Positions 18,198 through 53,213 of a stretch of DNA of 64,000 nt are shown in pieces; positions within the stretch are counted from its first letter, which is position 1, and each line of letters opens with the position of its first letter. Location of the stretch: positions 4,960,001 to 5,024,000 of the forward strand of contig NC_135260.1 in NCBI RefSeq assembly GCF_964204865.1, read 5' to 3'. The translations under genes and the position numbers were made by a program. Under the pieces are notes generated by a model. That model had not been told where the DNA came from. It did not search any database and worked only from the letters and a program-made list of their open reading frames with translations. Origin of the DNA: Styela clava (Eukaryota > Chordata > Ascidiacea > Stolidobranchia > Styelidae).

Positions 18198-18236
<39 letters not shown>

Positions 18237-19272: not shown

Positions 19273-22200
19273 ATGAGGATTCCTATTCAATACATTCTTC
19301 TTATGTTTATCGAGGCATTTCCATTGGTTAAAGGTCAGTATAACCGTGCATGCTTTACTTGCTTGCATTGGTTTTGTTTTTTGCGCGAAAAGAAATACTC
19401 GTTTTTCGCTCCTCCGATTATTTATTTGCATCAGGCGGAATATTTATTTATTCCGGCATGGAAAAGGCCAGTATGGCGGTGTGAAAATATGGCAAACCTC
19501 GATTTCACGTTAAAATTTGAATTAAGAACGGAGAAAGAAATACTAACTCAAACTTCGTTAAACTCCCAAAGCGGAGGCCGCCATAGATATAAAAATAAAT
19601 GATGATTGTTCGTATTCAATGTGTCGCCGCTCACGTACCGTAGATTGTGCTAAATGGCCGTTCCATCATCATAATATATATATCTATATGCGATACAACG
19701 CTTTGGCTTTAAAATCTTTGATGAGAGCGTAACCTCATACGAAATGTTTTAGTTTTTGAACCTAAATTTTTGGTATCGTAATATACACTGTAATCGTAAT
19801 GTTCAGACGAGAAAATTCGATGGTAGATTATCGGCAGGGTGGCCCATTGGTGAAGCGTTGGATTCGGATATTCTGGCATCGCGGGGTAGAATGTCGGGTT
19901 CAATTCCATACCCACCAGCTCACCAAGGGTGTTGTAAAATGAATAAGCAATGCCGAATCAACAAGATTACTTCCCGTCTGAAATATTGCAGCTAATAACG
20001 TATCAGTTCGTTAACACTTTGAGTACTTTGAGTTTATTGTTTATTCCTGAGTTTATTGCTCGACAGAAAAAATTGATACGATTATCAGATTCTCGAAACT
20101 GAATCGCGGGTATTAATCAGATCTTATTAGCCTATGCTTGCAGTAACGCTAAACATTATCAGGTTCCCCAATGGCGGGCGTAATATTACAAATTCGATTC
20201 GACCAATCATCATCGAGGAAAATAGTGCGTTCGCAATACCTGCGCAGCACCATAAAATTAAATATGGAATGAGAGAATGTGCGCCATAGTTAAATAGGTA
20301 CTGAATTAGTCTCGTTATAAAAAAAGTACCTTAATTTTGGTTTATCTGTTTTAAACCTATTTCTATTCCTCGATTTCTAATTTTCTTTCAACAGGTGAGA
20401 AATGCTGGATGCCTATGGTTTGCGACGGGAAACCTACTTGGAGAAACGTTACGGTGCGACCCTTAGTAATAGTTCCCCAATGTTGGTATCATTTATAAAA
20501 ATAAAACTGTTTTTTTTTTAAATCTGGAAATAAAAATGATTAAATTGAACTTTTTAGCATTTTCTTCCATCTATAAGTTCTGAAGGTTTGAAACTTACTT
20601 TAATCGATACCTCATCACAGATTTTACCTTTACACTTTAATCCACGGGAACACTTTTTCAAAGGGAAAACCTACTCAGTTAAGGCAATAGTTTAGCGATG
20701 TGCAGCTTTCATGCCCATACGTTTGAACGTTTCTCTCTTGTTCTATTTCAGACGGGACAGTGCACAAAAGAAGAAGAGAAGGCTTTGGACGGTTTGTGTC
20801 CACAATATAATTTTCTTTCAAATACGTTTGCAATTTTCTTATATTTGTCAAACGATCTGGTAACAAACATGCCCTCAAACAATCGTTTTATTAGAAAAAC
20901 ATAAAATATTTTTATAAAATATGAAAGATTTCATATTTTTATGGCGCTATTTTCAACAATCACATCATAACGTATAGTTTAACATTATCCATATCATATT
21001 CCTATTTTTAACCAGAGAGAGAGAGGAGTACATATCTTCTTACAAAAAATTTACTGAATATGGACTGTAAAACTGGAGACTCAATTTAAATTCTATTTTT
21101 GTTTATGTTTTGCAGCTTTAACGACAAAACTAGACGGAATGGAAAGTAAGCTCCATCAATTGAAAAAGACGATGGAAGAATCAGAGACAAACTCACTGAC
21201 GCCTTCTGTTGTAGGTGTCGAAAATACGACCACGCCCTCTGTTTTAGGTGTCAAGGAAACGACTACGCCCTCTGCTGTAGGTGTCAAGGAAACGACCACT
21301 CCCCAGGGTAAGAAAAATCTATGTCTTTTAGTATCGCATGCACTAGAATATATATTACAATAGTCCTGTTCAGTCAAAGTTAATGATATGGCGGTTTTGC
21401 GAATACGTTAATTTGGAAAAAATTGAAATGTATCCACATTGCCATTATTCAGTCTCTCAAAATTATAAATCTTGATATAAAGTTTTTTAACACAGGATAC
21501 AAAGACAAGAAAACTTCTTCGGCCCGTATCTCAACCTTACCTGCTACATCCCCGTGGTCATCTAAGGAAGCCTTTCTCTCTACTTTTCGCCCACAAACTA
21601 CAAAATTCGAACAGAGTACAGGTTAGTGTGGTCTTTTCTTTCTCGTTTTTTACTCAAAAAAAAAATTTTTACCATTTTCTCTCCGCTTTTTTGGTACGCG
21701 TCAAATATCTTAATTTGAAATTCCTCAGCACCTGAGGTCAATAACAGGTAAAGTTGCGATACTTTCAAGGAAAATATAACCTTATGTAATAGGTATTGTC
21801 TTGTCTAGTGTCTTGTTAGGAGTGGGATTTAAATATCACGCAATGTATTTGAAAAATTACTTTGTTACTCTCCGCAAGACGCCTTAATATATGACAGAGC
21901 AAAATTGCCCCAAGATGGCGTCCATAGTCTGGGGGTTGCCCAGCTTCATGGTTTTTGTCGTTGCCGTTTTGCCGCGGACTCGAGAAATCTGGGTTTGGTA
22001 TAGTTATATATGTATAGTATAGTACCACAAGTAATTCCAGTAAGCGTAACATAACCATTTTCGTATGTGTTATTCCTGACCCTCATATGACTACATTATT
22101 CAAAAAGTATTCCTAAGAAACATCCGTATATTTTTGCGTGGGGGTTAGAAATACCATATGCAAAACTGGTTAGGCCACGAAGTACATGTGATATGGAACT

Positions 22201-25200
22201 ATACAAGACTCAAAAAACATCGTTTCTCATGTTGTTTATTGTTCACTTCCGGTTGGTGATATTTTTTGCCAAATGAAGGATAGGGTTTACACATTAATTC
22301 CGGGAAAGCAAATGATGGCTTATTCATATGGCAAACCTTTGCCTCCCGTTTGCTTACCAGCCCATGTCCGTATGGTATTAGTTAGCCAGTCATTCCTAAC
22401 CCATATATGACTATTGATAATCTCACTACGCCATCTAAAAATCATAGTAATGTAATACGGCAATTTAGAATAGACCGACGTTCGTCCAAAACGTGCATAC
22501 GATCACCCGGCTTGCAAACCAAATCCGGCCTTTTGGGTAATTTAATCTATCCCATCTGATGCTGCCACAACCAAAATAAAACCAAATTTTTATGAAATAG
22601 GTCAAGGAATTTGTTGAGATTGCTATTTAATTTAGTTTTGACAAGAGGCTTTTGTGCTCCACTTTTGCTTCTGTAACGCTCTAGACATTGTTCATAAAAT
22701 GTAACTTTTTACGTCACAATCTTATGGCCCGCCAGTCTATGTGGGCAGAATTTTTGGCCTTTGCCCTAAAATACCAATATGACGGACACCGGGACGTAGT
22801 ATGTGTACCAGGTTGGGGTTAGGCCATACTTTATATCCAATTTTCCTTATTTTAGTTCTATTACGAGTTACGAGGAGACTAGCCAAGTGACTCCCGTGGT
22901 ATTTGTACATTAAATTATGGCGCATAATTTAACCCTACTAACTAACTCTAACCTGGTACACATACTACGTTCCGGTGTCGGCCATCTTGGTATGCATACT
23001 TCAGAAGCGCCTATTGAAAATCCTATCTTAAGAATTGAGCCAACTTCTAATCAGACTCTTATTTTAAAGAAGTTTGCTCTTAAATCCAGTCCATGCATTG
23101 TCACCATTGAAAATCTGACATTCCGACATTTGATTATATCTGGACTTCAAAGCTGAGTCGGAGATAAAAATTGTTTCAACCCGATGTCGATTGTGAATTT
23201 CATCCGACTTCACAGCCCTGTTCAGAATAAAATAATATTCGGTTTACGCCAGAATACGAGGCTCGGACTCTAAAAAAGTTCTTTTGCGTTTTTCAGTCGA
23301 TCTTACATGTGATTTTGAGTCTTCAACCAACCCTACATGCGACTATACGAGAGTTAATGGGACATTTCAGAGAGAATACAGAGATAATGAAGTTACAGGT
23401 ATTGTTTCTATATGAAACTCTTACAGATGAGTCTGATTTACTTCCGAGTAATTGCTTGTGACTTTGCTTACAAATGAGTCACCTTTACTTCCGAGTCAGT
23501 TTTCGTAACTTTGCTCAGAATGAATATCCTTTACTTTTGAGTGAGTGCTCGTAACTTTGCTTACAAATGAGTCATCTTTACCTGTGGGTGAGTTCTCATA
23601 ACTTTGCTCTTAGTTGGGTCTCCTTTACTTCTGAGTCAGATTTTATAACTATGCTCCGAGATATTTACTTTTAAGTGAGAGCTGGTAAGTTTTTAACATG
23701 AGTCTTTCTTAGTTCTGAGTAAGTGCTTGTAACTTCTGACTAGGGATAGAATAATCAGAATAAATCAATATTCTAGAATACTTGAATCAAATCTGAAATA
23801 GCGAATCCTTGACTATTTTTTTTTTTTTTGCAAAGAGAAAGTAAGCCGACAAGACGACTTAATCATATAGCGAACCACAGCCTCTCGATAGCAGGCACAA
23901 GTATACCGCTTAGCATGATGCGCCAAACTGCACCGTTGTATTGCGCGGTCAGATTTTAGACTCTCTCACAAGAATTTAAAGATGCTGTGTCTCCGTATCT
24001 CTCACCAGATACACTCTAATTTTTGTATTCAAATTCATCCTAGGTTATGTTCTTGCTGGTAATGGTACAATCAAATCCTTACCCAAGGCTTGGGCTGGCA
24101 ATGATGAACTATGCATGAGTGTCGACATAAAAGGGACATCTGATGGAGAACTTGTGGTCAAGGCTTACAATGGAACTGTTGTGTGAGTAGCTAACACTGC
24201 ATTTAATTTTTTTACCATACTATTTGTCGCTTTCACTCCAGAGCATACTTTGTCAATGTACAGTAAAAAATTATTTTTTTTTTGAACCAAAAAGGAAATT
24301 TGAAATTCAGTGTTTTAGGCGTTTGCAACCTGTCGCCATGCTGCGGGAAAAATGCGACCCACAAAAAAAATTGTGCGACATGCGAAATAGTGCCAGTTTT
24401 GACTAATTTGCGGCACGCGAAACCAATTTTTAATTTAGTTTAATCTGATACGTGCCAGTAATTCCAATCCCTTTGCGTGGCAAAACCTATACCTGGGTCC
24501 ATTATATCAGAGGTGGCCAACCTGCTTTCGATCGCGATCGACTAAATTCTTCCAAATAGCTCGCGATCGACTGATCGATAATAAGTACATACACAAAAAC
24601 GAACGAGTACTGAATATGCAGATACATGCGTATATATACAAAAATTCCACCGCTGCCAATAAGCTCGGCTCTGAGGGCGAATTCTAAAAACGCCACGAAA
24701 ATTTGTTTTTTAAAGTTAATTTGATTATGTGATTGTACCGGGAGTAAATTTTCATCATTTGTTTAAGATTCATTAGAATCAGATCTTAGACCTGTCTAAT
24801 TTTTAGTCATAAGTGTTGAAAACGATAATCGGCAAATTCATTCCCAAACTTTGACGGCGTTTTAAAAGTTTCAACAGACGCTGCATGAAACTGGTTTAAG
24901 GTTCATTATTTGGGGGTATGTTTTTGAATTCACTCAACATCAGACGCGATCGACTACTCGAGACGTGGCGATCGACCGGTCGATCGCGATCGACGTGTTG
25001 GACACCCCTGCAATATATGATGTATGCCCGTGAACAACTCATAATAAAGTTTCAGCCCGCGGCTTCACTCAGTTATTTGTATATGGCCCTCTGTATTAAA
25101 GGTTGCACGTCCCTTTTTTAAATTGTTTTAAAAAAAAATTAGCTTTGAGGATCATCTGTAAACAGAATTACTGGCAACCACTGTAATGTGAGGAGCTGCT

Positions 25201-28200
25201 GAAACTACAAATAACTATAGCGGTGCATTCCACATTAGTAAATACTGATTGGTGGGGAGACATGGGGCAATTAAAGTTGATGCGCTCGGAGGAAGAGCTA
25301 AATAATTGATTCCATATAAATGAGGTTCCTGGAGAAAGCAGAATATAACTAAATTTGATTTATTTTGTAAGTCTAAGTGAATACAGCAATGATGTGTTTT
25401 TTAATTTTTAGGAAAGCAATCCGGTCGTTTTCTGCCTCGACTACCTGGAAGATCGAGAAATTCATTTTAAAGAAAATAAACTCTGCAGATACCGAGGTTT
25501 GCAACACATTTGTTATTGAGAATCTTTCTAAATCAGAGTTGCTTTGGATGTGAATCCCATCACATATTATGCAAACGTTTTGGCGCTCCATGCGTATCTG
25601 TATCAATATGGAGTCAAGTAATTTTGTTCGCCTATTTTACACAATGTTGTGTAAAGTAAACCTATGGAAAGGGGGTATATCACTTGGCTAACATAGACAG
25701 TTCCCGAACTCGTAATAGAACTAAAACAAAACAAAATATGGAAATAAAATATTGGCCTGAGCCAACCTGGTACACATACTACGGGGATCTCATCTCACAT
25801 GGGCGTTTGGTTGAGATTGGTAGGGCTTAGTCTTGTTTGATCAGCGTGCAGAGGGTTGTAATCATTTCTTTGCATAATTGGAGTTTCTCTAGAATTCCTT
25901 TACAAACTGGGAAAACATATTAGACGTTTTATCAACTTTCCTCTACGCATGTATAAACCTTTAATAAATATCTTTTGACTCTTTTGAATGAGAATCCCTT
26001 CAAGGACTGACTCGAAATTGACAAACAACGGAAACCAAAATTTTGTGACGATAATTGCATGCCTGTTGAAAATGATTAGTAAACGTAATGCATTCGCGAT
26101 CTGTTGGAAAATCGTGTACAATTATCACATTCAGAAATCCGGAAGCAAGGTTGCTGCCTTCGTGGTTAGAAAGTTCAATTCCGACTTTTCAATGAAAGCA
26201 CTCTCGACTTCCACTCTAGACTCGCAGCCCTGCTAAAACTTCAATCTTTTTTTTATTTCATACAGTTCCAACTCGAGCTTGAGGCATCCGGGAATGTAGA
26301 GTTAGACAACATAACAACTTTGAACTCTTCTGAATGTTATGGTCTAGGTAAGTGCACCAATTTCTATATAGTCAATGAAAAAGTTGTTTAAGCTTTGAAT
26401 GTTCTCTCCGATCTTGTTAGGTTCAAACCACATTTCAGTTAGGTTTAGAAAATGGGCAGAATACGCCATTAAAAATACGAAATCCTTGAGAAAACGTCAA
26501 TATACTTCGGCTTGCCTTTTTGAATGACGTAGTCAGGTGGCGGTTCGGAATAACACATGCCAAAATAGTTATGCTACTCCCACTGTAAGTACTTGTGGAC
26601 TGTGGTACTAAACTATACCAGGCCCCGATTTTTCGAGGCCCGCAGCGAAACGACAGCACCAAAGGGCATAAAGTGAGACAGCGCTCTATGGACACCATTT
26701 TGAGGATATTTTACTCTGCCCTATATTGGGTGCTGAAATGTTTAAGCCACGCCCATTAAAATTAGATGTGATATAAAATAGCCCTATATGAAGGAGGCCA
26801 TTCAAATAGCGACATACATCCAATACATTATTCTTAACCTTCTGTCTATATGGCAGCCCAATAGCCCTGTATGAGGGAGGTCATTCAATCAGCGATCTGG
26901 CCATATATCCATCGCTAACAATCTCGTCGTTGTGGGTAAAAAAGTTTTTAACCGACATTTTTTAAAAAATCTATAAATCTAATCTCTCATACATTATAGT
27001 TCAATAGCGCAGTGGCTTAGTAATTTGCCCAGGAAAACGTTCAGTTTATTTCTTAGAGAGTTTACGTGACCTTTCTTGAAGCAAATAAGATGACGTATTG
27101 TCAAAACTACTAAAGGGCTCATGATCATATTATTGTAAAAAACTACAAAAGACAATTATTCTGAATTAAATATATAAACTTATTAATTAAAACGTAGAAA
27201 TAAATATTGTCCTCAATAATAGTTTCATAAATATCTGACTTCAAACTGTGGTCTTTGTTTCAGAATGTGGCGTTGTTTATAATTCCAAATGTTTTCGAGC
27301 GATCATTAATGATGTGAACAACGTCTCATTAAGCGTCGCTGAATCTATTTGCAAAAACAACCTAGCTAATTTTTATGACGTCACACACTACAAATTGCTT
27401 CAAGATTATTTACGATCACTGATTCCAGATGGGGAAACATACATTGTTTTTCGAACAGGAATGACTTACGAGGTAGGTCGAGTCTGAATCATGTTGCTTA
27501 TGCGGCCATTCATGAACTCATCATAAAATGAGGGCGATATTATTTCTACAATACTGTGTGCTATTACATTTCATCTTGAGATTGAACCCATATAGCTTTA
27601 TCATAGGATAGTAGTTGAAATCAAGCCATTTAGAACACTGACTACTTCACACTGGTATCAAATTTGACTTCTTTATTGGATTTGAAAACTTCATTTGCCA
27701 GCGTTTTTCAATTTTTGTCAAAAACTTCTTTTATGTAATGTTTCCAGCTAATTCATCAATTTGACTCCAACACCAGTGGAACGCTTCAACTTTACAGCTC
27801 TGATACTAAATCAGAGAAGACTAATCCAAAATAATTTGATTTATGCGTCTATTTCATTCAATTCACATCCACCAACTGTAATCACTGGAATGTGATTGAG
27901 CGAAATAATCACGTCACGCTTCATTCAGTTTCTTACTGGAGACCAAATAAGATTGTTTTGCATTGTCAGATCACACGACAAGACAAGGTTTAACCATACT
28001 CAGCTATATTCCAAAAGTGCCATTTGTTATATTTCTTAACATATTTTATATTTCAACAGAACGGTCAGCTGCAGTCAACAACGGACCAAGCTATATCTCT
28101 GCCAAGTGAGTTTTGGCTTTCTACCCATCCGTCTTCCGTTGCATCGCGGACAACTGTTGTTGTAGGTGTCGATCAAAACCCGGAAGATAAATTTCAAGGG

Positions 28201-28260
28201 ACTTTTAATGTTTCTCCTTCCTATGAGTATAATGGAGCCATCTGTGAAAATGAATTATAA
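19273..28260 (+). CDS. copy A: secreted mucin-like / MAM / C-type-lectin-like protein
   Basis: Eleven exons join in frame (431 aa): 19273-19333, 20395-20453, 20752-20791, 21116-21307, 21496-21621, 23297-23398, 24044-24182, 25412-25496, 26266-26347, 27264-27472 and 28060-28260. Residues 1-20 form a signal peptide (MRIPIQYILLMFIEAFPLVK). A short Cys segment follows (EKCWMPMVCDGKPTW...GQC), then a helical stretch (LDGMESKLHQLKKTMEES), three TPSVVGVKETT-like units and a Ser/Thr-rich linker. The MAM domain starts VDLTCDFESS...CDYT and ends FQLELEASGNVELDNI. A divergent long-form C-type-lectin-like domain closes the protein (ECG, KCF, SICKNNLANF, TYIVFRTGMTYENG, AICE); it lacks the usual Ca-binding WND and the C2-C3 pair. 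Exon 2 could instead end at 20447. No membrane segment is seen. A possible polyA signal is AATAAA at 28907. Family knowledge suggests extracellular binding; the ligand is unknown. Confidence 0.8.
19835..19918 (+). repeat. tRNA-like SINE fragment in intron 1 of copy A
   Basis: The segment has a tRNA-like layout: GTGGCCCATTGGTGAAGC resembles an A box and GGTTCAATTCC is close to the B-box consensus. Convincing acceptor pairing is lacking. The same segment occurs at 45681-45764 in block B with more damage. It is best read as a tRNA-derived retroposon, not a working tRNA. Confidence 0.4.
21196..21304 (+). repeat. 33-bp coding minisatellite, 3 units
   Basis: Within exon 4, 33-bp units encode TPSVVGVENTT, TPSVLGVKETT and TPSAVGVKETT, then TPQ. 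The Thr-rich units are likely O-glycosylated (inference). Copy B has four units at the same place. Confidence 0.9.
22767..23010. mobile_element. palindromic MITE in intron 5 of copy A
   Basis: The arms match the 10330 family (ATGACGGACACCGGGACG, GTAGTATGTGTACCAGG; right arm CTGGTACACATACTACGTTC). A copy is at 48327-48565 in the same intron of copy B, so it was present before the block duplicated. Confidence 0.7.
23425..23745. repeat. ~46-bp tandem repeat in intron 6 of copy A
   Basis: About seven degenerate units share the theme GAGTCATCTTTACTTCTGAG and CTCGTAACTTTGCTTACAAA. Copy B keeps only the first ~20 bases, having lost (or never gained) everything from ~23447 to ~24030. Confidence 0.7.
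24316..25112. mobile_element. TIR element of the GCGGCCC family, split by a nested hAT-N element
   Basis: The outer arms are GGCGTTTGCAACCTGTCGCC at the left and CTGTATTAAAGGTTGCACGT at the right. These resemble the ends of the element at 36380-36711. The interior (TAATCTGATACGTGCCAGTA, CAGTTATTTGTATATGGCCC) is shared with that family. It is interrupted at 24508-25010. The same nested structure is in copy B. Confidence 0.65.
24508..25010. mobile_element. non-autonomous hAT-like element, nested, with 8-bp target duplication
   Basis: The ends are CAGAGGTGGCCAACCTG and GTTGGACACCCCTG, with flanking octamers CATTATAT (24500-24507) and CAATATAT (25011-25018), seven of eight matching. The sub-terminal region is rich in CGATCGACT/GATCGCGATCGA. 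The 503-bp interior has no gene. The same insertion is in block B at 49414-49916. Confidence 0.8.
27748..27834 (+). CDS. possible alternative last exon of copy A
   Basis: Acceptor TGTTTCCAG (ending 27747) opens a phase-0 frame, compatible with exon 10: LIHQFDSNTSGTLQLYSS, then DTKSEKTNPK and stop. It would replace exon 11 and remove the second half of the lectin-like domain. Copy B keeps the frame and stop despite a 6-base deletion (52707-52787). Splicing evidence is needed; it could also be an intronic coincidence. Confidence 0.35.
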   Translation, partial: LIHQFDSNTSGTLQLYSSDTKSEKTNPK

Positions 28261-29198
28261 CTCTGTCCATTGAATGATCGATAAACAAAAAAAAATTTAG
28301 AATTACTTGTGTATAGGGTAACTACTTATCACTTGTATAAGACGGTTAATTTACCGATACTTTTATTTAATGAATGCATTAACAACGTCACAATGATAGA
28401 ATTTGCGTAAAAGCCTGAGGTCTTTCAAATCCTTACTCTAAACAAGGCTCTGCACAGGGAGTCGATTATTCTTAGAAAACTAAGAATCGTTTTGTTTGGC
28501 TCCGCTCGAACTGTGATATATTAGACGGTTGTATGTACACCTGATAATTGGAATAAGATTTAAAATTATACTGAAAAGAGACGAGTCGATAAATCGGTGA
28601 CCATGTTCTCTTATTAACTTCACGCAATCAATTCCACTAATTGAAACATGAAGCCTATATGTTGAATCGTTGCCATTTAATTCTCAGTTATTCTATTTGT
28701 CTGTCTGTCAAGCTTTTCCTGGGTCGGAATTTTGATAAAACTGCATTCATTGTTAAATTCCCACCGAACAAACTATTTTTTATTTCTTAGATGTGTTCAA
28801 GAATCGTTCAAATTTACAACAATTAATCAAATCCTGTCTGTAATTTTTTAATATATTGAAAGTGCTCTAGCTATTCTTTCTAAGGAATTGTTATTGATGA
28901 TAATTGAATAAAAGTTTAGAACGTTATATGGGTTTGAAGTTGTCAGGGTCAAGTACAAAAATAATGGAGGATTTCAAAGTTTACTTTTTTAGGCATTAAA
29001 AGGGTTAACCAAATGATACTTACTAAATACAGCTTCGTATCTGTTACCTCTAAATATTAAAAAAAATAAAGCTTTTTTCGATGGAAATTTACGAACGAAC
29101 GTTAAAATTGGCGTTCCTGAAGTATGAGTACCAATATTGAGGTAACTAATTTTGTTCGCCTATTTTACATTAATTTGTTTAAAGGGACTGTAACAGGC

Positions 29199-30180
29199 AT
29201 TTTTTGGACTCGGATTCGATTTCGAGTCCACGTCGTTTTTACCGAGTCTATAATCAATTCTGTTTTTACTAATTTACGCCTATATTTGTACTTTTACCCT
29301 TATAAATTTCACTACATACCTTAACTAGTTAAAATTCAAGGTTAGATATTTAACAATATCACTAATGTGTATTATAAACACTCCTAATAAAAAGGACGAC
29401 AGATATCCAGATAATATAACGTAAGTTAAAAACTATTGATCGCTTATAACAATGATGCGACAGTCGCCTTCAAACTATCTATCCTTTTTGGTATACATGT
29501 AGTACACAATAAAATATGTGTTAGCGCAATATTTTTGAGTTTTCGATTCGCGTAAATAAATATGAAACAGGTGCAGGAACAACCCAAGAGGGAATTTCAT
29601 CAATACCTCTTTTAAATCGAGTTATTTACGTGCAATCCTTTCTCTAAAAAGGGAGCAATGGAAAACATGGAGCTTTTTAGAACGTTTACATGAACTACTA
29701 AATTGCAAGCATTGTATTGACGACGAGTGGCATCTCTCTACCATTTGCGCACACGACATAGTAAATTTAGGGCAATAAATATCTGGAATTATGGGAAATC
29801 ATTGTAGTCAAAAGCTTTTAATTTTTCATATTGACACGTGAGAATTTCTGAATAGCCGCCCAGAATTGACGCAAAGTGGTGGGCTGGAAATCCAGTTCAC
29901 AACCAAGGCGCACATTGATCCACAGTTACGTTTGTATTATGACCGCCGAAAAAGAAGAAAAGTATATTTTCAAATTGATTCAACAGCCATCTGCGGAACC
30001 ACTGGGGAAAAAATATGAGCTACGATGTATGTTTGTGAGCGCGCGATGCTGTAGTATGGTCAAAAACGTGTTTTCTACTTTAACATTGTGACGTCACGGA
30101 CTCGGAGGATTCGATTCGAGTCCATGACCTATTACTCGGATTCGTCGAATCTCTGTAATGCCGGACTCGTCCCATCCCTA
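29199..30180. mobile_element. 5'-truncated TAGRGATGG-type hAT-like element, block A only
   Basis: The sequence ends with GGACTCGTCCCATCCCTA and contains repeated GGACTCGGA..TTCGA..GAGTCC phrases. This resembles the complete element at 56077-56970, whose ends are TAGAGATGGCGG and CATCCTTA. The left end is not recognisable. Block B holds a different sequence here (54239-54980), including a fragment of the palindromic MITE. Confidence 0.45.
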
Positions 30181-30427
30181 CTTGGTGCTGACAGATTTTT
30201 ATTGCTTCGAAAATCATCGTGCGACTTCCTGCATTTTTCTGTGTTCTGACGGCGCTGTCTCGCGTCAAGATTAAGTGAGTGACTTATTATTCAAGTTAGT
30301 TGTGCACATGGAATATTACACGTTATACTTGACTATAGAACTGATAGAATGCAGATTACAAAACAAAATAGAGGAACAATCAATTGAGTGGGAAGACCCT
30401 AGGCAGCACTTGAAAGCACATTGACAG

Positions 30428-37302: not shown

Positions 37303-37763
37303 CTCTAAACTGTGCATTTTGTTGTATTATAGAGAGTAACCAAGATTTTTGAAATACTATTACATCGATCAATAAACTGGATGAATTTGTTGTTGAAAGG
37401 CAGTTAGTGAGTGAAATGAAAAGTCTGTCCCCAAAACGTAAAATTTTTTTTTTTCTGTGCACTGAATGAAAATCTTTCCAAAAGAAAGAAGTTATACAAT
37501 TTAGGAAGAACAAGGCCAATAAGAATAGACATAAAATAATCATAGGAAATTTACATTGTTGTACATGATTCAAAATTTGGTTACCTATTTTGTGAATACG
37601 TTATTTTCACATGTTCAAGATGGTAACAATAATTTTCAGATTATCTATGAACGAATCCTACCGAAAAGATACAATCTTACGTAAAATATAGCGTAACCTC
37701 CGTTACAAGGTGCTTGGCTTGAGAACGCAGCCATCACACAAGACGAGTCTAGTTTGTTACTTA

Positions 37764-40555: not shown

Positions 40556-41763
40556 TCGTGCTAGTTGTCCTTGAATCACAATATATCATGAGTTTCTATG
40601 TGTATTATCGTAGTTTAAAGAGAACTGTAAAAGTACTTTGATCTCAGCGATTTGACATGAGCAGGGAAAGGCCACGTTGCATAACACAACAATAATATTT
40701 GATATTCCTGATTCAACTGTGAGTAATCGATATATATAGTATTTTAACCTGTTCAACTTGTTTTCAATTTTTTTTGACCTGCTTGATATCAGGAAATGAG
40801 CGTTTGAATATTTTGCCCATTGAAACTAGTAAAACCCGGGCATCAGAGTTTACACATGCTAACCATTGCCAACGAATTCAACGAAATATTACTCTTCAAA
40901 TATTACCGCTCCACCGAAAGGCTTGATATCCACTGTCATTGACATCCAAGACATTGACTGAATGGTATTGTTAACTTTCTACCAGTTGGACATGTTTTAT
41001 TATAATAAGAAATAAAATTCGTTTGAAACGTGGGCTGAAACTAACAGTAACTGTGCATGTATCACTAGAAACATTGATTTCCTTACACACTCCCTCTAAA
41101 AGCGGTGAATAACTCTTCCGCTGAAATAATTTTAAGAGTAAAGCTTTTGTCAAATATTGCAACATGAATTATCAGCGCCGTGAAGGCTAGAATGACAATT
41201 TATCAATGACCTGGATTGACTCGAGTTACCTGAATGAAATAACTCGGACGCAAATAACCACCGATAAGACTCGGCACAATGGTTGACCTGACTTGGACTT
41301 GAGGTTTGAGGATCTCCGCCACAACTGAAAAGTGCTTCTTCTGAGTATCATTCTTGCCTGGCTTCTTCCCATCGGGCAACTTATTCTGACGTCCAAGACG
41401 AATCATTTATCCAAATCAACTCAATATTCATAATATTTAATATTTTAAACCCATCACTTTGACACCTGAAATTTCGCATTGCGTCACCTAAAAAGATTTT
41501 AATCAATTTACAAAAACTCACTCACGGGCAAAATGAATATTTTCCCAAGCTCTGTTAACTGTTAGGACAAAATCTGAACAATATAGCACGGAATATTTTA
41601 TTGAGTCGTAAGACGCTAGCTGAACTAATTTTTAGCTCTGGGGTTTAAAATCGTTGCTATTTCGACTGAAGTCCTGACTTGGTCAAGTGATTACCGACTT
41701 CAAAAAAAGGAAAGTTCAGCGTGTTTTGTCTCTGAATCATGGTAATTCTACGCATTTTTAGGT

Positions 41764-41996
41764 AATCCCGAAATAGGTTTCCCAAGATGGCGGACACCGG
41801 AGCGTAGTATGTGTACCTGGTTAGGGTTAGTCGCTAATCTCGTGTACAATAACTACGGGAGTCACTCGACTAGTCCCCGAGCTCGTGATAAAACTAAAAC
41901 AAGAAAAATTGGAATAAAATGATGGCCTAACACTAACTTGATACACATACCACGTTCCGAAGTCCGTCAATTTGGTTCACATACTTCGGAAGTACT
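41764..41996. mobile_element. palindromic MITE, block B unit 1
   Basis: It carries arms AAGATGGCGGACACCGGAGC / CACATACCACGTTCCGAAGT with the GGTTAGGGTTAGTCGC core. It is inherited with the tandem unit. Confidence 0.65.
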
Positions 41997-43327
41997 TATT
42001 TTTATTTGTGCATGTGTTTTTAGAGATATATACACTAAAAATTTCCATTGGAATTTCAAACAGAGCTAAAATATGCGTGCTGTTTGTCCCTGAAGCAAAA
42101 TATTTTCATGAGTATGTATATGTATTATCTCAGAAAGTAAAAAATCTGGAAAGTGTTTTGATTAATATTATAACCAGGTTTTTAAATAATTATTAAATGT
42201 TCAACTTGCTTCATATAATGTTACACAAACTTCAAACGAAATTGCTATGCAGAAAACAGTCTCAGCAATTGGACATGGGCAGGGGTCACGTTGCATAACA
42301 AAACTAAAGTTACTGATTCAACTGTGAGAAATGGATGTGTTTCTGCTGGATTTCAGGAAATGAACGTTTGAAACATTTGTCGTTTCAAACTAGCATAACC
42401 CTGGCATCATATTTTGCACATTATAACCATTTCCAACGAATTAAACCAAATATTACGCTCCAAATATCATCCCTCCCCGAATGGCTTGCAATCCACTGGC
42501 ATTGACATCCAAGACATTGACTGAAATGTATTGTAACTTTATACTAATTGAACATGTTTTATTGTAATAAAATTTAAAATTCGTTTGAAACGTGGCCTGA
42601 AAATAACGGCATTTGTGCAAGTATCACTAGCGACAGTTATTTCCCTGCACTCCCATCTAAAAGCGGTGAAAAACCCTCCCACCGAAATATATTTTAACAG
42701 TAAGGTTTTTGTCAAATATTGCAACGTGAAAGTAGCAGCACTGTGGAGTCTCTAATGAATGAATATCAATGACGTGGATTGACTCGAGTTATCTGAATGA
42801 AATAACTCGGACGCAAATAACCTCCGATAAGACTCGGCACAAGGATTGACTTGACTTGGACTTGAGGTTTGAGGATTTCCGCCACAACTGGAAAGTGCTT
42901 CTTCTGAGTATCATTCTTGCCTGGCTTCTTCCCATCGGGCAACTTATTCTGACGTCCAAGACGAATCATTTATCCAAATCAACTCAATATTCATAATATT
43001 TGATATTTTAAACCCATCACTTTGACACCTGAAATTTCGCATTGCGTCACCTAAAAAGATTTCAATCAATTCACAAAACTCACTCACGGGCAAAATGAAT
43101 AATTTCCCAAGCTCTGTTAACTGTTAGGACAAAATATGAACAACACAGCGCGCAATATTGTATTGAGTCGTAAGACACCAGCTGAACTAATATTTAGCTC
43201 TGGGGTTTAAAATCGTTGCTATTTCGACTGAAAGTCCTGACTTGGTCAAGTGATTAAGGACTTAAAAAAAAAGGAAAGTTCAGCGTGTTTTATCTCTGAA
43301 TCATGGTAATTCTACGCATTTTTAGGT

Positions 43328-43560
43328 AATCCCGAAATATGTTTACTAAGATGGCGGACACCGGAACGTAGTATGTGTACCTGGTTAGGGTTAGTCGCTA
43401 ATCTCGTGTACAATAACTACGGGAGTCACTCGACTAGTCCCCGAGCTCGTGATAAAACTAAAATAAGGAAAATTGGAATAAAATTATGGCCTAACACAAG
43501 CTTGATACACATACCACGTTCCGAAGTCCGCCATCTTGGTTCACATACTTCGGAAGTACT
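43328..43560. mobile_element. palindromic MITE, block B unit 2
   Basis: This member has better preserved arms than unit 1: AAGATGGCGGACACCGGAAC on the left and GCCATCTTGGTTCACATACT on the right. Confidence 0.65.
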
Positions 43561-44864
43561 TATTTTTATTTGTGCATGTGTTTTCAGAGATATATACACT
43601 GAGAATTTCGATTGGAATTTCAAACAGAGCTAAAATATGCGTGCTGTTTGTCCCTGAAGCAAAATATTTTCATGAGTATGTATGTGTATTATCTCAGAAA
43701 GTGAAAAATCTGGAAAGCGTTTTGATTAATATCATAACCAGGTTTTTAAATGATTATTAAATGTTCAACTTGCTTCATATAATGTTACACAAACTTCAAA
43801 CAAAATTGCTATGCAGAAAACAGTCTCAGCAATTGGACATGAGCAGGGGTCATGTTGCATAACAAAACTAAAGTTACTGATTCAACTGTGAGAAATGGAT
43901 GTTTCTGCTGGATTTCAGGAAATGAACGTTTGAAACATTTGTCGTTTCAAACTAGCATAACCCTGGCATCATATTTTGCACATTACAACCATTTCCAACG
44001 AATTAAACCAAATATCACGCTCCAAATAGCATCCCTCCCCCGAATGGCTTGCAATCCACTGGCATTGATATCCAAGACATTGACTGAAATGTATTGTAAC
44101 TTTATACTAATTGAACATGTTTTATTATATTAAAATTTAAAATTCGTTTGAAACGTGGCCCAAAAATAACGGCATTTGTGCAAGTATCACTAGCGACAGT
44201 TATTTCCCTGCACTCCCATCTAAAAGCGGTGAATAACCCCGAAATATATTTTAACAGTAAGGTTTTTGTCAAATATTGCAACGTGAAAGTAGCAGCATTG
44301 TGGAGTCTTTAATGAATGAATATCAATGACCTGGATTGACTCGAGTTATCTGAATGAAATAACTCGGACGCAATTAACTACGACGCAAGTCCCGACTTCG
44401 GTATAAATCACTTGGTCAAGTAATCACCGACTTTGAAAAAGGAAAGTTCAGCGTGTTTTTGTCCCTGAATCACGTTATTTTCATGAGCATGTATGTGTAT
44501 TATCTAGGTTTTGAGAAAACTGTAGAAAGTACTTCAATTAAAAATGTCATCAGAGCCCAGGCTGATAGGTGTTACATGTACTTGAACAGCGGTCTTATGT
44601 TGCATTATCATGTGTGTTGTCTCAGTTTTCAGAGAAATCTGGAAAGTGCTTAAGTTGATATCGAAATCAGGTCCTTGACTAATATATTCAGTGCAGTTGA
44701 TATTTTTGATTCAAATATTAGAATTCGATATTAAAAATATTTTAACCTGTTTAACTTGTTTTTAACTTTTATGACCCATTGAATTTCAGGAAATGAACGT
44801 TTGAAACCTCTGCCGTTTCAAACTAACATAACCCTGGCTATTGCCAACAAATTCAACCAGGTAT

Positions 44865-45125
44865 TACTCTTACGGGCGTGTTAGTGACATCGCCGTCATC
44901 GTTTCATAAAGATAGAAAGAGAGGCATTTACCAAACTCACTTTTTTTGTGACGCAACACGTATCTTACAAGAGAGAGAGAAAACAACTTCTCTTTCCGCT
45001 TTAGAGTAGTGAGTGAGCTTACAAAGGATATATTCCGACGCGAATAGATTGAAGCTTCATTCTAACCCAATCTGTTCGGGAATCGACTTTCATCGGAGCA
45101 ATTTTGAGAAAATTTTGGATTCAAA
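44865..45125 (+). promoter_or_regulatory. presumed promoter and 5' UTR of copy B
   Basis: This matches 19005-19272 nearly base for base, including AAAGATAGAAAG and the TATATTCC context. The GA tract is shorter by two GA units. Confidence 0.3.
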
Positions 45126-48100
45126 ATGAGGATTCCTATTCAATACATTCTTCTTATGTTTATCGAGGCATTTCCATTGGTTAAAGGTCAGTATAACCGT
45201 GCATGCTTTACTTGCTTGCATTGGTTTTGTTTTTTGCGCGAGAAGAAATACTCGTTTTTCGCTCCTCGGATTATTTATTTGCATCAAGCGGAATATTTAT
45301 TTAATCCGGCATGGAAAGGGCCAGTATGGCGGTGTGAAAATATGGCAAACCTCGATTTCACGTTAAAATTTGAACTAAGAACTAAGAAAGAAATACTAAC
45401 TCAAACTTCGTTTAAACTCCCAAAGCGGAGGCCGCCATAGATATAAAAATAAATGATGATTGTTCGTATTCAATGTGTCGCCGCTCACGTACCGTAGATT
45501 GTGCTAAATGGCCGTTCCATCATTATAATATATATATATATATACGATACAACGCTTTGGCTTTTAAACTCTCTGATGAGAGCAACGGAATGTTTTAGTT
45601 TTTGAACCTAAAATTTTGGTATCGTAATATAAACTGTAATCATTATGTTCAGAAGAGAAAATTTGATCGTAAATTATCGGCGTGGTGGCCCATTGTTGAA
45701 GCTTTTTATTCGGATATTCTGGCATCGCGGGGTAGAATGTCGGGTTCAATTTCATACCCACCACCTCAACCAGGGTGTTGTAAAATGAATAAGCAATGCC
45801 GAATCAACAAGATTGCGTCCCGTCTGAAATATTGCAGCTAATAACGTATCCGTTCGTTAACACTTTGAGTACTTTGAGTTTATTGTTTATTCCTGAGTTT
45901 ATTGCTCGACAGAAAAAATTGATACGATTATCAGATTCTCGAAACTGAATCGCGGGTATTAAATCAGATTTTATTAGCCCATGCTTGCAGTAACGCCAAA
46001 CATTATCAGGTTCCCCAAAGGCGGGCGTAATATTACAAATTCGATTCGACCAATCATCATCGAGGAAAATAGTTCGTTCGCAATACGTGCGCAGCACTAT
46101 AAAATTAAATATGGAATGAGAGAATGTGCGCCATAGGTAAATAGGTACTGAATTAGTCTCGTTATGAAAAAAGTACCTTAATTTTGGTTTATCTGTTTTA
46201 AACCTATTTCTATTCCTCGATTTCTAATTTTCTTTCAACAGGTGAGAAATGCTGGATGCCTATGGTTTGCGACGGGAAACCTACTTGGAGAAACGTTACG
46301 GTGCGACCCTTAGTAATAGTTCCTTACTGTTGGTATCATTTATAAAAATAAAACTGTTTTTTTTTTAAATCTGGAAATAAAAATGATTAAATTGAACTTT
46401 TTAGCATTTTCTTCCATCTATAAGTTCTGAAGGTTTGAAACTTACTTTAATCGATACCTCATCCCAGATTTTACGTTTACACTTTAATCCACGGGAACAC
46501 TTTTTCACAGGGAAAACCTACTCAGCTAAAGCAATATTTTAGCGATGTGCAGCTTTCATGACCATACGTTTGAACGTTTCTCTCTTGTTCTATTTCAGAC
46601 GGGACAGTGCACAAAAGAAGAAGAGAAGGCTTTGGAAGGTTCGTGTCCACAATATAATTTCCTTCCAAATACGTTTGCAATTTTCTTATATTTGTCAAAC
46701 GATCTGGTAACAAACATGCCCTCAAATAATCGTTTTATTAGAAAAACATAAAATATTTTTATAAAATATGAAATATTTTATATTTTTATGGCGCTATTTT
46801 CAACAATCACATCATAACGTATAGTTTAACAATATCTATATCATATTCCTATTTTTAATCAGAGAGAGAGAGATGAGTACATATCTTCTTACAAAAATTT
46901 ACTGAATATGGACTGTAAAACTGGAGACTCAATTTAAATTCTATTTTCGTTTATGTTTCGCAGCTTTAACGACAAAACTAGACGGAATGGAAAGTAACCT
47001 CCATCAATTGAAAAAGACGATGGAAGAATCAGAGACAAACTCACTGACGCCTTCTGTTGTAGGTGTCAAAAATACGACCACGCCCTCTGTTGTAGGTGAC
47101 AAGGAAACGACTACGCCCTCTGTTGTAGGTGTCAAGGAAACGACTACGCCCTCTGTTGTAGGTGTCAAGGAAACGACCACTCCCCAGGGTAAGAAAAATC
47201 TATGTCTTTTGGTATCGCATGCACTAGAATATATATTACAATAGTCCTGTTCAGTCAAAGTTAATGATACGGCTGTTTTGCGAATACGTTAATTTGGAAA
47301 AAATTGAAATATATCCACATTGCCATAATTCAGTATCTCAAAATTATAAGTCGTGATATAAAGTTTTTTAACACAGGATACAAAGACAAGAAAACTTCTT
47401 CGGCCCGTATCTCAACCTTACCTGCTACATCCCCGTGGTCATCTAAGGAAGCCTTTCTCTCTACTTTTCGCCCACAAACTACAAAAGTCGAACAGAGTAC
47501 AGGTTGGTGTGGTCTCTCCGCAAGACGTCTTAATATATGACAGAGCAAAATTGCCTCAAGATGGCGTCCATAGTCTGGGGGTTGCCCGGCTTCATGATTT
47601 TTGGCGTTGCCGTTTTGCCGCGGACTCGAGAAATCTGGGTTTGGTATAGTTATATATGTATAGTATAGTACCACAAGTAATTCCAGTAAGCGTGACATAA
47701 CCATTTTCGTATGTGTTGTGATATGGAATATACAAGATATATATGTGATATGGAACTATACAAGACTCAAAAACATCGTTTCTCATGTTGTTTATCGTTC
47801 ACTTCCGGTTGGTGATATTTTTTGCCAAATGAAGGATAGGGTTTACACATTAATTCAGGGAAAGCAAATGATGGCTTATTCATATGGCAAACCTTTGCCT
47901 CCCGTTTGCTCACCAGTCCATGTCCGTATGGTATTAGTTAGCCAGTCATTCCTAACCCATATATGACTATTGATAATCTCACTACGCCATCTAAAAATCA
48001 TAGTAATGTAATAAGAGAATTTAGAATACACGGACGTTCGTCAAAACGTGCATACGATCACCCGACTTGCGAACCAAATCCGGTCCGTTGGATAATTTAA

Positions 48101-51100
48101 TCTGACCCATCTGATGCTGCCACAACCAAAATAAAACCAAATTTTGATGAAATAGGTCAAGGAATTTGTTGAGATTGCTATTTATTTTAGTTTTGACAAG
48201 AGGCTTTTGTGCTCCACTTTTGCTTTTGTAACGCTGTAGACATTGTTCATAAAATGTAACTTTTTACGTCACAATCTTATGGCCCGCCAGTCTATGTGGG
48301 CAGAATTTTTGGCCTTTGCCCTAAAATACCAATATGGCGGACACCGGGACGTAGTATGTGTACCAGGTTGGGGTTAGGCCATAATTTATTTCCATTTTTC
48401 CTTATTTTAGTTCTATTACGAGTTACTAGGAGACTAGCCAAGTGACTCCCGTGGTATTTGTACATTAAATTATGGCGCATAATTTGACCCTACTAACTAA
48501 CCCTAACCTGGTACACATACTACGTTTCGGTGTCCGCCATCTTGGTATGCATACTTCAGAAGCGCCTATTGAAAATCCTATCTTAAGAATTGAGCCAACT
48601 TTTAATCAGACTCTTACTTTAAAGAAGATTGCTCTTAAATCCACTCCATGCATTGTCACCATTGAAAGTCTGACATTGTCAATTGTGAATTTCATCCGAC
48701 TTCCCAGCCCTGTTCAGAATAAAATAATATTCGGTTTACGCCAGAATACGAGGCTCGGACTCTAAAAATTTTCTTTTGCGTTTTTCAGTCGATCTTACAT
48801 GTGATTTTGAGTCTTCAACCAACCCTACATGCGGCTATACGAGAGTTAATGGGACATTTCAGAGAGAATACAGAAATAATGAAGTTACAGGTATTGTTTC
48901 TATATGAAACTCTTACAGATGAGTCTGATTTACTTCCGTTTTTCATCCTAGGTTATGTTCTTGCTGGTAATGGTACAATCAGATCCTTACCCAAGGCTTG
49001 GGCTGGCAATGATGAACTATGCATGAGTGTCGACATAAAAGGGACATCTGATGGAGAACTTGTGGTCAAGGCTTACAATGGAACTGAAATGTGAGTAACT
49101 AACACTGCATTTAATTTTTTACCATACTATTTGCCGCTTTCACTCCAGAGAATGCTTTGTCAATGTACAGTGAAAAATTATTATTTTTATGAACCAATAA
49201 GGAAATTTGAAATTCAGTGTTTTAGGGGTTTGCAACCTGTCGCCATGCTGCGGTAAAAATGCGACCCACAAAAAAATTGTGCGACATGCGAAATAGTGCC
49301 AGTTTTGACTAATTTGCGGCACGCGAAACCAATTTTTAATTTAGTTTAATCTGATACGTGCCAGTGATTCCAATCCCTTTGCGTGGCAAAACCTATACCT
49401 GGGTCCATTATATCAGGGGTGGCCAACCTGCTTTCGACCGCGATCGACTAAATTCTTCCAAATAGCTCGCGATCGACTGATCGATAATAAGTACATACAC
49501 AAAAACGAACGAGTACTGAATTTGCAGATACATGCGTATATATAAAAACATTCCACCGCTGCCAATAAGCTCGGCTCTGAGGGCGAATTCTAAAATCGCC
49601 ACGAAAATTTGTATTTTTAATTTAATTTGATTATGTGATTGTACCGGGAGTAAATTTTCATCATTTGTTCAAGATTCATTAGAATCAGATCTGAGGCCTG
49701 TCGAATTTTTAGTCATAAGTGTTGAAAACGATAATCGGCAAATTCATTCCCAAACTTTGACGGCGTTTTAAAAGTTACAACAGGCGCTGCATGAAACTGG
49801 TTTAAGGTTCATTATTTGGGGGAATGTTATTGAATTCACTTAACATCAGACGCGATCGACTACTCGAGACGTGGCGATCGACCGGTCGATCGCGATCGAC
49901 GTGTTGGACACCCCTGCAATATATGATCTATGCCCGTGAACAACTCATGTTGTCTCGCAAAGCCTGTGTTGAATAAAGTTTCAGCCCGCGGCTTCACTCA
50001 GTTATTTGTATATGGCCCTCTGTATTAAAGATTGCACGCCCCTTTTTTAAATTGTTTTAAAAAAAAATTATCTTTGAGGATCATCTGTAAACAGAATTAC
50101 TGGCAACCACTGTAATGTGAGGAGCTGCTGAAACTATAAATAACTATAGCGGTGCATTCCACATTAGTAAGTACTGATTGGTGGGGAGACATGGGGCAAT
50201 TAAAGTTGATGCGCTCGGAGGAAGATCTAAATAATTGATTCCATATAAATGAGGTTCCTGGAGAAAGCAGAATATAGCAAAATTTGATTTATTTTGTAAG
50301 TCTATGTGAATACAGCAATGATGTGTTTTTTTAATTTTTAGGAAAGCAATCCGGTCGTTTTCTGCCTCGACTACCTGGAAGATCGAGAAATTCATTTTAA
50401 CGAAAATAAACTCTGCAGATATCGAGGTTTGCAACACATTTGTTATTGAGAATCTTTTTAAATCAGAGTTGCTTTGGATGTGAATCCCATCACATACTAT
50501 GCAAACGTTTTGGCGCTCCGGGCGTATCTGTATCAATATGGAGTCAAGTAATTTTGTTCGCCTATTTTACCCAATGTTGTGTAAAGTAAACCTATGGAAA
50601 GAGGGTATATCACTTGGCTAACATAGACAGTTCCCGAACTCGTAATAGAACTAAAATAAAAAAATATGGGAATAAAATATTGGCCTAAGCCAACCTGGTA
50701 CACGTACTACGGGGATTTCATCTTACATGGGCGTTTGGTTGAAATTGGTAGGGCTTAGTCTTGTTTGATCAGCGTGCAGAGGGTTGTAATCATTTCTTTG
50801 CATAATTGGAGTTTCTCTAGAATTCCTTTACAAATTGGGAACACATATTAGACTTTTATCAACTTTCCTCTACGCATGTATAAACCTTAAATAAATATCT
50901 TTTGACTCAATGAGAATCCATTCAAGGACTGTCTCGAAATTGACAAAAAATTCTGATTCTAATTACCCTACTTTGAGTCAAACAACGGAAACCAAAATTT
51001 TGTGACCATAATTGCATGCCTGTTGAAAATGATTAGTAAACGTAATGCATTCGCGATCTGTTGGAAATTCGTTTACAATTATCACATTCAGAAATCCGGA

Positions 51101-53213
51101 AGCAAGGTTGCTGCCTTCGTGGTTAGAAAGTTCAATTCCGACTTTTCAATGAAAGCACTCTCGACTTCCACTCTAGACTTGCAGCCCTGCTAAAACTTCA
51201 ATCTTTTTTTTTTTATTTCATACAGTTCCAACTCGAGCTTGAGGCATCCGGGAATGTAGAGTTAGACAACATAACAACTTTGAACTCTTCTGAATGTTAT
51301 GGTCTAGGCAAGTGCATCAATTTCTATATAGTCAATGAAAAAGTTGTTTAAGCTTTGAATGTTCTCTTCGATCTTGTTAGGTTAAAACCACATTTCAGTT
51401 AGGTTTAGAAATTGGGCAGAATACGCCATTAAAAATACGAAATCCTTGAGAAAACGTCAATATACTTCGGCTTGCCTTTTTGAATGACGTAGTCAGGTGG
51501 CGGTTCGGAATAACACATGCCAAAATAGTTATGCTACTCCCACTGTAAGTACTTGTGGACTGTGGTACTAAACTATACCAGGCCCCGATTTTTCGAGGCC
51601 CGCAGCGAAACGACAGCACCAAAGGGCATAAAGTGAGACAGCGCTCTATGGACACCATTTTGAGGATATTTTACTCTGCCCTATATTGGGTGCTGAAATG
51701 TTTAGGCCACGCCCATTAAAATTAGACGTGATATAAAATAGCCCTATATGAGGGAGGCCATTCAAATAGCGACATACATCCAATAGATTATTCTTAACCT
51801 TCTGTCTATATGGAAGCCCAATAGCCCTGTATGAGGGAGGCCATTTAATTAGCGATCGGGCCATATATCCATCGCTAACAATCTCGTCGTTGTGGATAAA
51901 AAAGTTTTTAACCAACATTTTTTTAAAAAAAAATAAATAATATTTTCCATACATTATAGTTCAATAGCTTAGTGGCTTAGTAATTTGCCCAGAAAAACGT
52001 TCAGTTTATTTCTGAGGGAGTTTACGTGACCTTTCTTGAAGCAAATAAGATGACGTATGGTCAAAACTACTAAAGGGCTCATGATCATATTATTGTAGAA
52101 AACTACAAAAGACAATTATTCTGTATTAAATATATAAACTTATTAATTAAAACGTAGAAATAAATATTGTCCTCAATAATAGTTTAATAAATATCTGACT
52201 TCAAACTGTGGTCTTTGTTTCAGAATGTGGCGTTGTTTATAATTCCAAATGTTTTCGAGCGATCCTTAATGATGTGAACAACGTCTCATTAAGCGTCGCT
52301 GAATCTATTTGCAAAAACAACCTAGCTAATTTTTATGACGTCACACACTACAAATTGCTTCAAGATTATTTACGATCACTGATTCCAGATGGGGAAACAT
52401 ACATTGTTTTTCGAACAGGAATGACTTACAAGGTAGGTCGAGTCTGAATCATGTTGCTTATGCGGCCATTCATGAAGTCATCATAAAATGAGGGCGATAT
52501 TATTTCTACAATACTGTGGGCTATTACATTTTATCTTGAGATTAAACCCATATAGCTCTATCATAGGATAGTAGTTGAAATCAAGCCATTTAGAACACTG
52601 ACTACTCCAAACTGGTATCAAATTTGACTTCTTTATTGGATTTGAAAACTTCATTTGCCAGCGTTTTTCAATTTTTGTCAAAAACTTCTTTTATGTAATG
52701 TTCCAGCTAATTCAACAATTTGATTCCAACACCAGTGGAACGCTTCAACTTTACAGCTCTGATACTAAATCAGAGAATCCCAAATAATTTGATTTATGCG
52801 TCTATTTCATTCAATTCACATCCACCAACTGTAATCACTGGAATGTGATTGAGCGAAATAATCACGTCACGCTTCATTCAGTTTCTTACTGGAGACCAAA
52901 TAAGATTGTTTCGCTTTTTCAGATCACACGACAAGACAAGGTTTAACCATACTCAGCTATATTCCAAAAGTGCCATTTGTTATATTTCTTAACATATTTT
53001 ATATTTCAACAGAACAGTCAGCTGCAGTCAACAACGGACCAAGCTATCTCTCTGCCAACTGAGTTTTGGCTTTCTACTTATCCGTCTTCCGTTGCATCGC
53101 GGACAACTGTTGTTGTAGGTGTCGATCAAAACCCGGAAGATAAATTTCAAGGGATTTTTAATGTTTCTCCTTCCTATGAGTATAATGGAGCCATCTGTGA
53201 AAATGAATTATAA
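45126..53213 (+). CDS. copy B: secreted mucin-like / MAM / C-type-lectin-like protein
   Basis: Eleven exons join in frame (442 aa): 45126-45186, 46242-46300, 46599-46638, 46964-47188, 47377-47502, 48789-48890, 48952-49090, 50342-50426, 51226-51307, 52224-52432 and 53013-53213. Domain order is the same as copy A; the mucin-like repeat has four units. The MAM domain has CGYT where A has CDYT, which is closer to the usual MAM Cys-Gly. Differences from A include K to N and E to K in exon 4, D to E in exon 3, F to V in exon 5, V-V to E-M at the exon 7/8 junction, and G to S, S to T, H to Y and T to I in exon 11. Exons 1, 2 and 9 are identical to A. Intron 6 is only 61 nt. Intron 9 starts with GC (AG|GCAAGT at 51308) instead of GT. 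A possible polyA signal is AATAAA at 53852. Confidence 0.8.
45681..45764 (+). repeat. tRNA-like SINE fragment in intron 1 of copy B
   Basis: Counterpart of 19835-19918. The B box now reads GGTTCAATTTC and the A-box region is further mutated, so it is decaying. Confidence 0.35.
47044..47185 (+). repeat. 33-bp coding minisatellite, 4 units
   Basis: Units encode TPSVVGVKNTT, TPSVVGDKETT, TPSVVGVKETT and TPSVVGVKETT, then TPQ. The last two units are identical at protein level, which suggests the extra unit arose by recent slippage or unequal exchange. Confidence 0.9.
48327..48565. mobile_element. palindromic MITE in intron 5 of copy B
   Basis: Same insertion as 22767-23010. Arms ATGGCGGACACCGGGACGTA and CATACTACGTTTCGGTGTCC; core GGTTGGGGTTAGGCC. 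Confidence 0.7.
49223..50046. mobile_element. GCGGCCC-family element split by nested hAT-N element, copy B
   Basis: Counterpart of 24316-25112 in intron 7, with the outer arms recognisable. It keeps ~28 bases (CATGTTGTCTCGCAAAGCCT and neighbours) just right of the nested element that copy A lacks. Confidence 0.65.
49414..49916. mobile_element. nested non-autonomous hAT-like element, copy B
   Basis: The ends are CAGGGGTGGCCAACCTG and GTTGGACACCCCTG, flanked by CATTATAT (49406-49413) and CAATATAT (49917-49924). Same site and same TSD mismatch as block A. Confidence 0.8.
52707..52787 (+). CDS. possible alternative last exon of copy B
   Basis: Acceptor ATGTTCCAG opens phase 0: LIQQFDSNTSGTLQLYSS, then DTKSENPK and stop. 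Relative to copy A there is a 6-base deletion that leaves frame and stop intact. Confidence 0.35.
   Translation, partial: LIQQFDSNTSGTLQLYSSDTKSENPK

Follow-up and report, generated by a model that had tools for sequence, protein, structure and literature searches.

Two paralogous genes, copy A and copy B, lie in a 64,000-nucleotide window of the Styela clava genome (NCBI RefSeq assembly GCF_964204865.1, contig NC_135260.1, positions 4,960,001 to 5,024,000; all coordinates below are those of the window). On balance, each probably encodes a secreted, soluble recognition protein of the collectin/ficolin type, in which diverse calcium-independent C-type lectin-like domains (CTLDs) are displayed on a disulfide-linked coiled-coil oligomer. 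An N-terminal head would join the subunits into a disulfide-bonded coiled-coil dimer or trimer, an O-glycosylated stalk would hold the CTLDs out, and the clustered CTLDs would need no calcium to bind their targets, using loops that vary from paralogue to paralogue. The mode of action would be that of collectins and ficolins, except that a coiled coil and a mucin-like stalk replace collagen, and the repertoire would serve in blood or mucus for soluble pattern recognition. Copies A and B are confirmed as genuine, recently arisen paralogues of a gene for a secreted lectin-like protein, and the interest lies in the family to which they belong more than in the pair.

Organization of the two genes

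Copy A (19273–28260) and copy B (45126–53213) are both on the forward strand. With exon coordinates taken over from the original prediction, 11 exons join in each copy into one open frame with a single stop codon, giving predicted proteins of 431 aa (copy A) and 442 aa (copy B). The exon start phases (0,1,0,1,1,1,1,2,0,1,0) are identical in the two copies, and ten of the 11 exons have the same length; exon 4 alone differs (192 bases in copy A and 225 in copy B) and holds a 33-base repeat, of which copy B has one unit more. The originally proposed models, with in-frame exons of conserved phase, one stop each and equal lengths everywhere except in the tandem-repeat exon, are thus borne out for both copies. 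By a crude estimate, the probability that every exon is stop-free in one frame by chance is ~1e-13 per copy. All splice sites are GT-AG with the exception of copy B intron 9, which is GC-AG (TAG|GCAAGT).

In copy A, exon 1 (19273–19333) contains the start codon and a signal-like peptide, exons 2 (20395–20453; Cys24 and Cys30) and 3 (20752–20791; Cys44) encode the head, exon 4 (21116–21307) the heptads and 33-base TTTP repeats, and exon 5 (21496–21621) the Ser/Thr-rich stalk. Exons 6–9 (23297–23398, 24044–24182, 25412–25496 and 26266–26347) specify the MAM-like domain in four parts, the last ending in a GT donor, and exons 10 (27264–27472) and 11 (28060–28260) the two parts of the CTLD, followed by the stop. 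These assignments derive from frame joining throughout, combined with hydropathy (exon 1), head conservation (exons 2–4), repeat and module scans (exons 4 and 5 respectively), tblastn with relatives (exons 6–11) and splice sites (exon 9). The copy B exons 1–9 (45126–45186, 46242–46300, 46599–46638, 46964–47188, 47377–47502, 48789–48890, 48952–49090, 50342–50426 and 51226–51307) are assigned by frame joining together with identity to the NCBI protein P0002 (exons 1–8), the repeat scan (exon 4), and splice sites and comparison with P0002 (exon 9); frame joining and tblastn with relatives place the two parts of the CTLD in exons 10 (52224–52432) and 11 (53013–53213, including the stop). Intron 6 is 645 bases long in copy A, with 47-base repeats at 23420–23656, and only 61 bases in copy B.

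P0002 (LOC120348018) corresponds to copy B and is identical to it over 306 residues spanning exons 1–9, so the same exons are recovered by another pipeline. Past exon 9 it reads through into intron 9 for 14 residues to a stop, leaving no lectin-like domain; at the donor of this exon copy B has GC (51307), whereas copy A has GT. Because P0002 ends in intron 9, the annotation lends no support to the copy B exon 9–10 join, which is unproven. This, together with the lack of a near-identical match to copy A among the 53 related proteins of the first search, weighs against the gene structure given here. P0003, an NCBI relative, makes the same exon 9–10 junction (GL|ECG) and has a C-terminus of the same kind; since exons 10 and 11 of copy B are open and relatives have a junction of this type, copy B is expected to encode the full protein, including the CTLD. 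It is rather unlikely that the copies instead differ in product, with copy A at full length and copy B reduced to a truncated secreted MAM protein after mutation of its exon 9 donor to GC. Both the GC donor and the end of the P0002 model would fit such a change, but the donor otherwise fits the consensus of a strong GC-AG site, and exons 10 and 11 are still open, with six amino-acid changes between A and B. The LOC120348018 model itself seems truncated through the GC donor at 51307. The GC donor and the truncated NCBI model were overlooked at the outset.

A family in Styela clava

Homologue searches dependent on shared 5-residue words list 73 related proteins (referred to by P numbers), all from Styela clava wherever a species is shown, and the closest matches of the window proteins are Styela clava proteins. 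No relative from outside Styela clava is present among the matches listed, some of which are named without a species, and this does not imply absence elsewhere. The names of the 73 proteins include 46 distinct LOC numbers, and the database mixes annotation releases. A strict set consists of the 43 current-release entries (one per gene, on a contig) plus copy A, with isoforms P0005, P0017, P0039 and P0065 excluded; the current-release rows are spread over 12 contigs that differ in length.

The first 67 proteins contain varied combinations of head, stalk, MAM-like domain and CTLD, with optional sushi domains before and after the MAM. P0044 has the same head and stalk and a C-terminal fibrinogen-like domain in place of the CTLD. 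An alternative N-terminal domain is present in nine proteins (P0030, P0045, P0048, P0049, P0051, P0052, P0055, P0056 and P0057), eight of which have no head; it is unnamed, occupies approximately residues 15–87 in most carriers, and is joined to the same CTLD. The original prediction overlooked this large family and its sushi and fibrinogen-like variants, which automatic protein names currently conceal.

Head and stalk

By hydropathy the N-terminus is signal-like, and it is followed by a head whose three cysteines (Cys24, Cys30 and Cys44 in copy A) are conserved in 36/36, 39/39 and 39/39 heads respectively. Three heptads follow, with positions 52, 55, 59, 62, 66, 69 and 73 hydrophobic in 82–100% of 39 heads, among them those of the two window copies. 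The 11 cysteines of copy A are divided among the head (three), the MAM-like domain (four) and the CTLD (four), and the uneven count in the head points to an interchain bond. The stalk (residues 79–159) is 36% Ser+Thr and contains 3–4 TTTP units. Beyond residue 30 the mean hydropathy of every 19-residue stretch is 0.73 or lower, and there is no second hydrophobic segment. The signal peptide (as a signal-like N-terminus), Thr-rich repeat and lack of a membrane anchor originally proposed are supported; that architecture omitted the head with its invariant cysteines and heptads.

MAM-like and lectin-like domains

Profile searches of the joined window proteins, proposed at the outset as a check, find neither MAM nor CTLD in Pfam (no MAM up to E 10), and sequence searches of these proteins against Pfam, NCBIfam and PDB yield no substantial match to either domain. 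Pfam MAM is also absent from the best 25 of the 38 families listed for 46 family members. Profile searches of PDB with alignments A1 and A3 return weak matches only, including one CTLD receptor at E 0.61, and a search with alignment A4 matches the sushi repeats of relatives (best 60 of 137 rows). Matches to QRPTase_C (Pfam E 0.08 for copy A; present in 4 of 46 members, with E 6.4e-6 at best) are taken as spurious because the proteins are secreted.

Structure prediction, the other check proposed, gives models of two relatives that match the CTLD and MAM folds. The best match in the CTLD comparison is the collectin CL-K1. CTLDs filled the list of structure matches, and the MAM-like domain was therefore predicted from a nearly MAM-only relative; it has a jelly-roll fold as in MAM, although the MAM match is not clearly above those to other jelly rolls. 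MAM domains have four cysteines, and these are found in copy A (Cys 164, 174, 217 and 292). The claim of one MAM domain is supported, as a MAM-like domain, by the fold of a relative's model but not by a Pfam match or a clear lead over other jelly rolls.

CTLDs have a C1–C4 cysteine pair, and a C2–C3 pair is usual but not universal. The family domains, which have the CTLD fold in the model of a relative, retain the C1–C4 pair, with Cys at P0022 positions 176 and 278 in 62/62 CTLDs of the mixed-release set. The C2–C3 pair is not found; P0022 has Cys at 148, 156, 176 and 278, and there are four cysteines in all in 48 of the 62. Motifs for calcium and sugar binding are also lacking among these domains (EPN 0/62, WND 0/62, QPD 1/62), and the domain is, as first proposed, a non-canonical CTLD. 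P0022 Pro240 and Asn266, which presumably occupy the positions of EPN and WND, are kept in 58/61 and 59/62 CTLDs respectively, whereas the neighbouring positions 241 and 267 vary widely.

Constant and variable parts

The MAM-like domain is nearly constant and the CTLD is highly variable. Clustering of the strict set at 75% identity places all 16 MAM-like domains in one cluster and divides 36 CTLDs among 31. In the eight proteins of this set with head, MAM and CTLD, mean divergence is 0.294, 0.122 and 0.363 respectively; the CTLD is more divergent than the MAM in 28/28 pairs but more divergent than the head in only 19/28, so the head conserves its cysteines and heptads and not its other residues. 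The 12 strict-set proteins with MAM and CTLD give divergences of 0.133 and 0.376, with the CTLD higher in 66/66 pairs. The mixed-release set behaves similarly (CTLD higher in 78/78 pairs of 13 proteins and 209/210 pairs of 21 proteins), and the main contrasts persist after restriction to current-release entries.

Within the CTLD, the most variable sites gather in a loop ahead of helix 1, at the beginning of strand 2, in the latter half of the long loop region, at the turn joining strands 3 and 4, and in the strand 4–5 loop. Candidate binding-loop sites are P0022 positions 163–165, 204–208, 236–246, 252–261 and 267–274. Fifteen of the 27 top variable sites fall within the 27 columns of three such loops (p 2.6e-6; p 0.0006 among loop residues in the mixed-release set), these regions having been picked after the variability profile was known. 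The long loop region as a whole is not hypervariable (p 0.42; p 0.03 with the strand 4–5 loop added). Between P0027 and P0029 there are 28 CTLD changes, 18 in 40 loop columns and 10 in 96 others (p 1.6e-5), a test that is partly circular because both proteins entered the variability profile. The window copies show no loop clustering of CTLD changes (1/40 versus 5/96 columns).

Head and CTLD identities are uncorrelated among 17 current genes (r -0.10, 136 pairs), and in the mixed-release set r is 0.37 (as high in 23/2000 permutations). Two pairs of current entries, P0008/P0011 and P0027/P0029, have heads that are 97.5% identical and CTLDs that are ~80% identical. P0001 and P0014, on different contigs, have CTLDs that are 95% identical; over 42 residues the N-terminus of P0001 shares 81% identity with copy B, and a shared 22-residue stretch is 82% identical to copy B and 64% identical to P0014. 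The P0001 model is itself unusual in that part of its MAM is doubled, and its exons may have been chained. P0028/P0034 (heads 94% and CTLDs 56% identical), which have the same LOC number, and P0030/P0039 and P0010, P0012 and P0013, which are from a different release than their partners, may not be separate genes, and an argument built on such entries was dropped.

These patterns would be consistent with a repertoire of soluble oligomeric receptors that is scattered over many loci and diversified in the germline, the receptors having an oligomerising head, a near-constant MAM and a variable lectin-like tip. Segmental duplication, the swapping of tips from one locus to another and selection acting on binding loops would renew this repertoire, which might differ between individuals. 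Such a tunicate counterpart of FREP-like systems is proposed only tentatively.

Segmental duplication and surroundings

The two genes are within a direct segmental duplication (~15.3–30.4 kb versus 40.6–55.2 kb) which self-comparison resolves into several matching pieces that are not gap-free, the units (15298–30427 with copy A, 40642–55234 with copy B) both being in forward orientation. Over aligned bases, A and B are 98.3% identical in exons, 96.4% in introns and 97.7% in flanks. The coding regions differ by 20 non-synonymous and 3 synonymous changes (294 synonymous sites; non-synonymous and synonymous divergence 0.020 and 0.010), which is not significant as evidence of selection between A and B (Fisher p 0.32). 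Synonymous change is lower than predicted from the intron rate (Poisson P 0.007), for which intron alignment error or gene conversion are possible causes.

Tandem units of ~1.56 kb are situated upstream of each gene copy (14449–17931 and 40642–44381), and related arrays of roughly 0.5-kb repeats flank the duplication units on their outer sides (11323–12989 and 58371–61035). Two inverted copies of a hAT-type transposon (381–3437, reverse strand; 31845–34896, forward strand) are 95% identical and contain open stretches matching Dimer_Tnp_hAT and DUF4371. A further tandem array (61995–62402) has a 182-base unit composed of two 91-base halves, and an open stretch of 192 codons with no Pfam match (8054–8629, forward strand) lies outside the duplication. 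There are no further family exons in the window outside copies A and B (tblastn with 69 proteins, E 1e-3), no sushi exon in the window, including both genes (best sushi match E 1.1), and no matches in plasmid, Rfam and tRNA scans of the window.

Possible roles

An immune, mucus or allorecognition role, as first suggested, is plausible, immune use being putative. It is unlikely that these are adhesive or structural glycoproteins of mucus, tunic or endostyle matrix, in which the MAM and CTLD would bind matrix, the stalk would be mucin-like, and loop variation would simply be tolerated. The Thr/Ser-rich stalk suits such a role, and an S. clava endostyle study reports that SVEP1 and P-selectin, names also carried by family members, are high in the anterior endostyle (PMC9953650); however, the endostyle genes may not be those of this family, the CTLD diverges much more than the MAM beside it, and in P0044 the tip is swapped for a fibrinogen-like domain. 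More doubtful still is a role in gamete or self/non-self recognition (egg coat, sperm or allorecognition), with copies diverging alongside co-evolving partners. Rapid CTLD divergence speaks for it, and NCBI automatically names one member zona pellucida sperm-binding protein 3 receptor-like, but an allorecognition system would sit at a single locus, whereas this family is spread over numerous loci on 12 contigs.

Comparison with known systems

Ascidian mannose-binding lectins and ficolins, and a collectin-like protein of Styela plicata, are described in PMC5465252, and the word 'lectin' is absent from the main text of PMC12627437 and of PMC12448946. No published description of the family is among the matches listed, judged by titles and the starts of abstracts and not covering the S. 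clava genome paper. The suggestion that the architecture is undescribed is therefore retained provisionally for the family, although NCBI gene models of relatives already exist under automatic names.

The window proteins resemble collectins (mannose-binding lectin, SP-D and collectin-11) in being secreted, with N-terminal cysteines, a predicted coiled coil and a C-terminal CTLD, but have no run of three Gly-X-Y, place a TTTP stalk and a MAM between coil and CTLD, and belong to a family with neither EPN nor WND in 62 CTLDs and QPD in one. The trimeric coiled-coil neck of collectins may have a counterpart in the heptads of the family heads. The link to ficolins is through P0044; the window genes carry CTLDs and, unlike ficolins, no collagen. 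Part of the family combines CTLD and sushi modules as do selectins, SVEP1 and complement receptor 1 (the source of some automatic names), whereas in the window proteins the CTLD is last and not first as in selectins, with no sushi exon, EGF match (Pfam) or membrane segment. The Ser/Thr-rich TTTP repeats recall mucins and may be O-glycosylated.

If the favoured reading is true, the family is another route to a collectin/ficolin-like repertoire, through an oligomerising head, a constant MAM and a highly variable calcium-free CTLD, once replaced by a fibrinogen-like tip. Diversified recognition families of invertebrates include the snail FREPs, sea urchin 185/333 and the VCBPs. The Styela clava family is built from other domains and may differ from these in inducible or somatic diversity, but resembles them in having numerous loci that combine conserved with variable regions.

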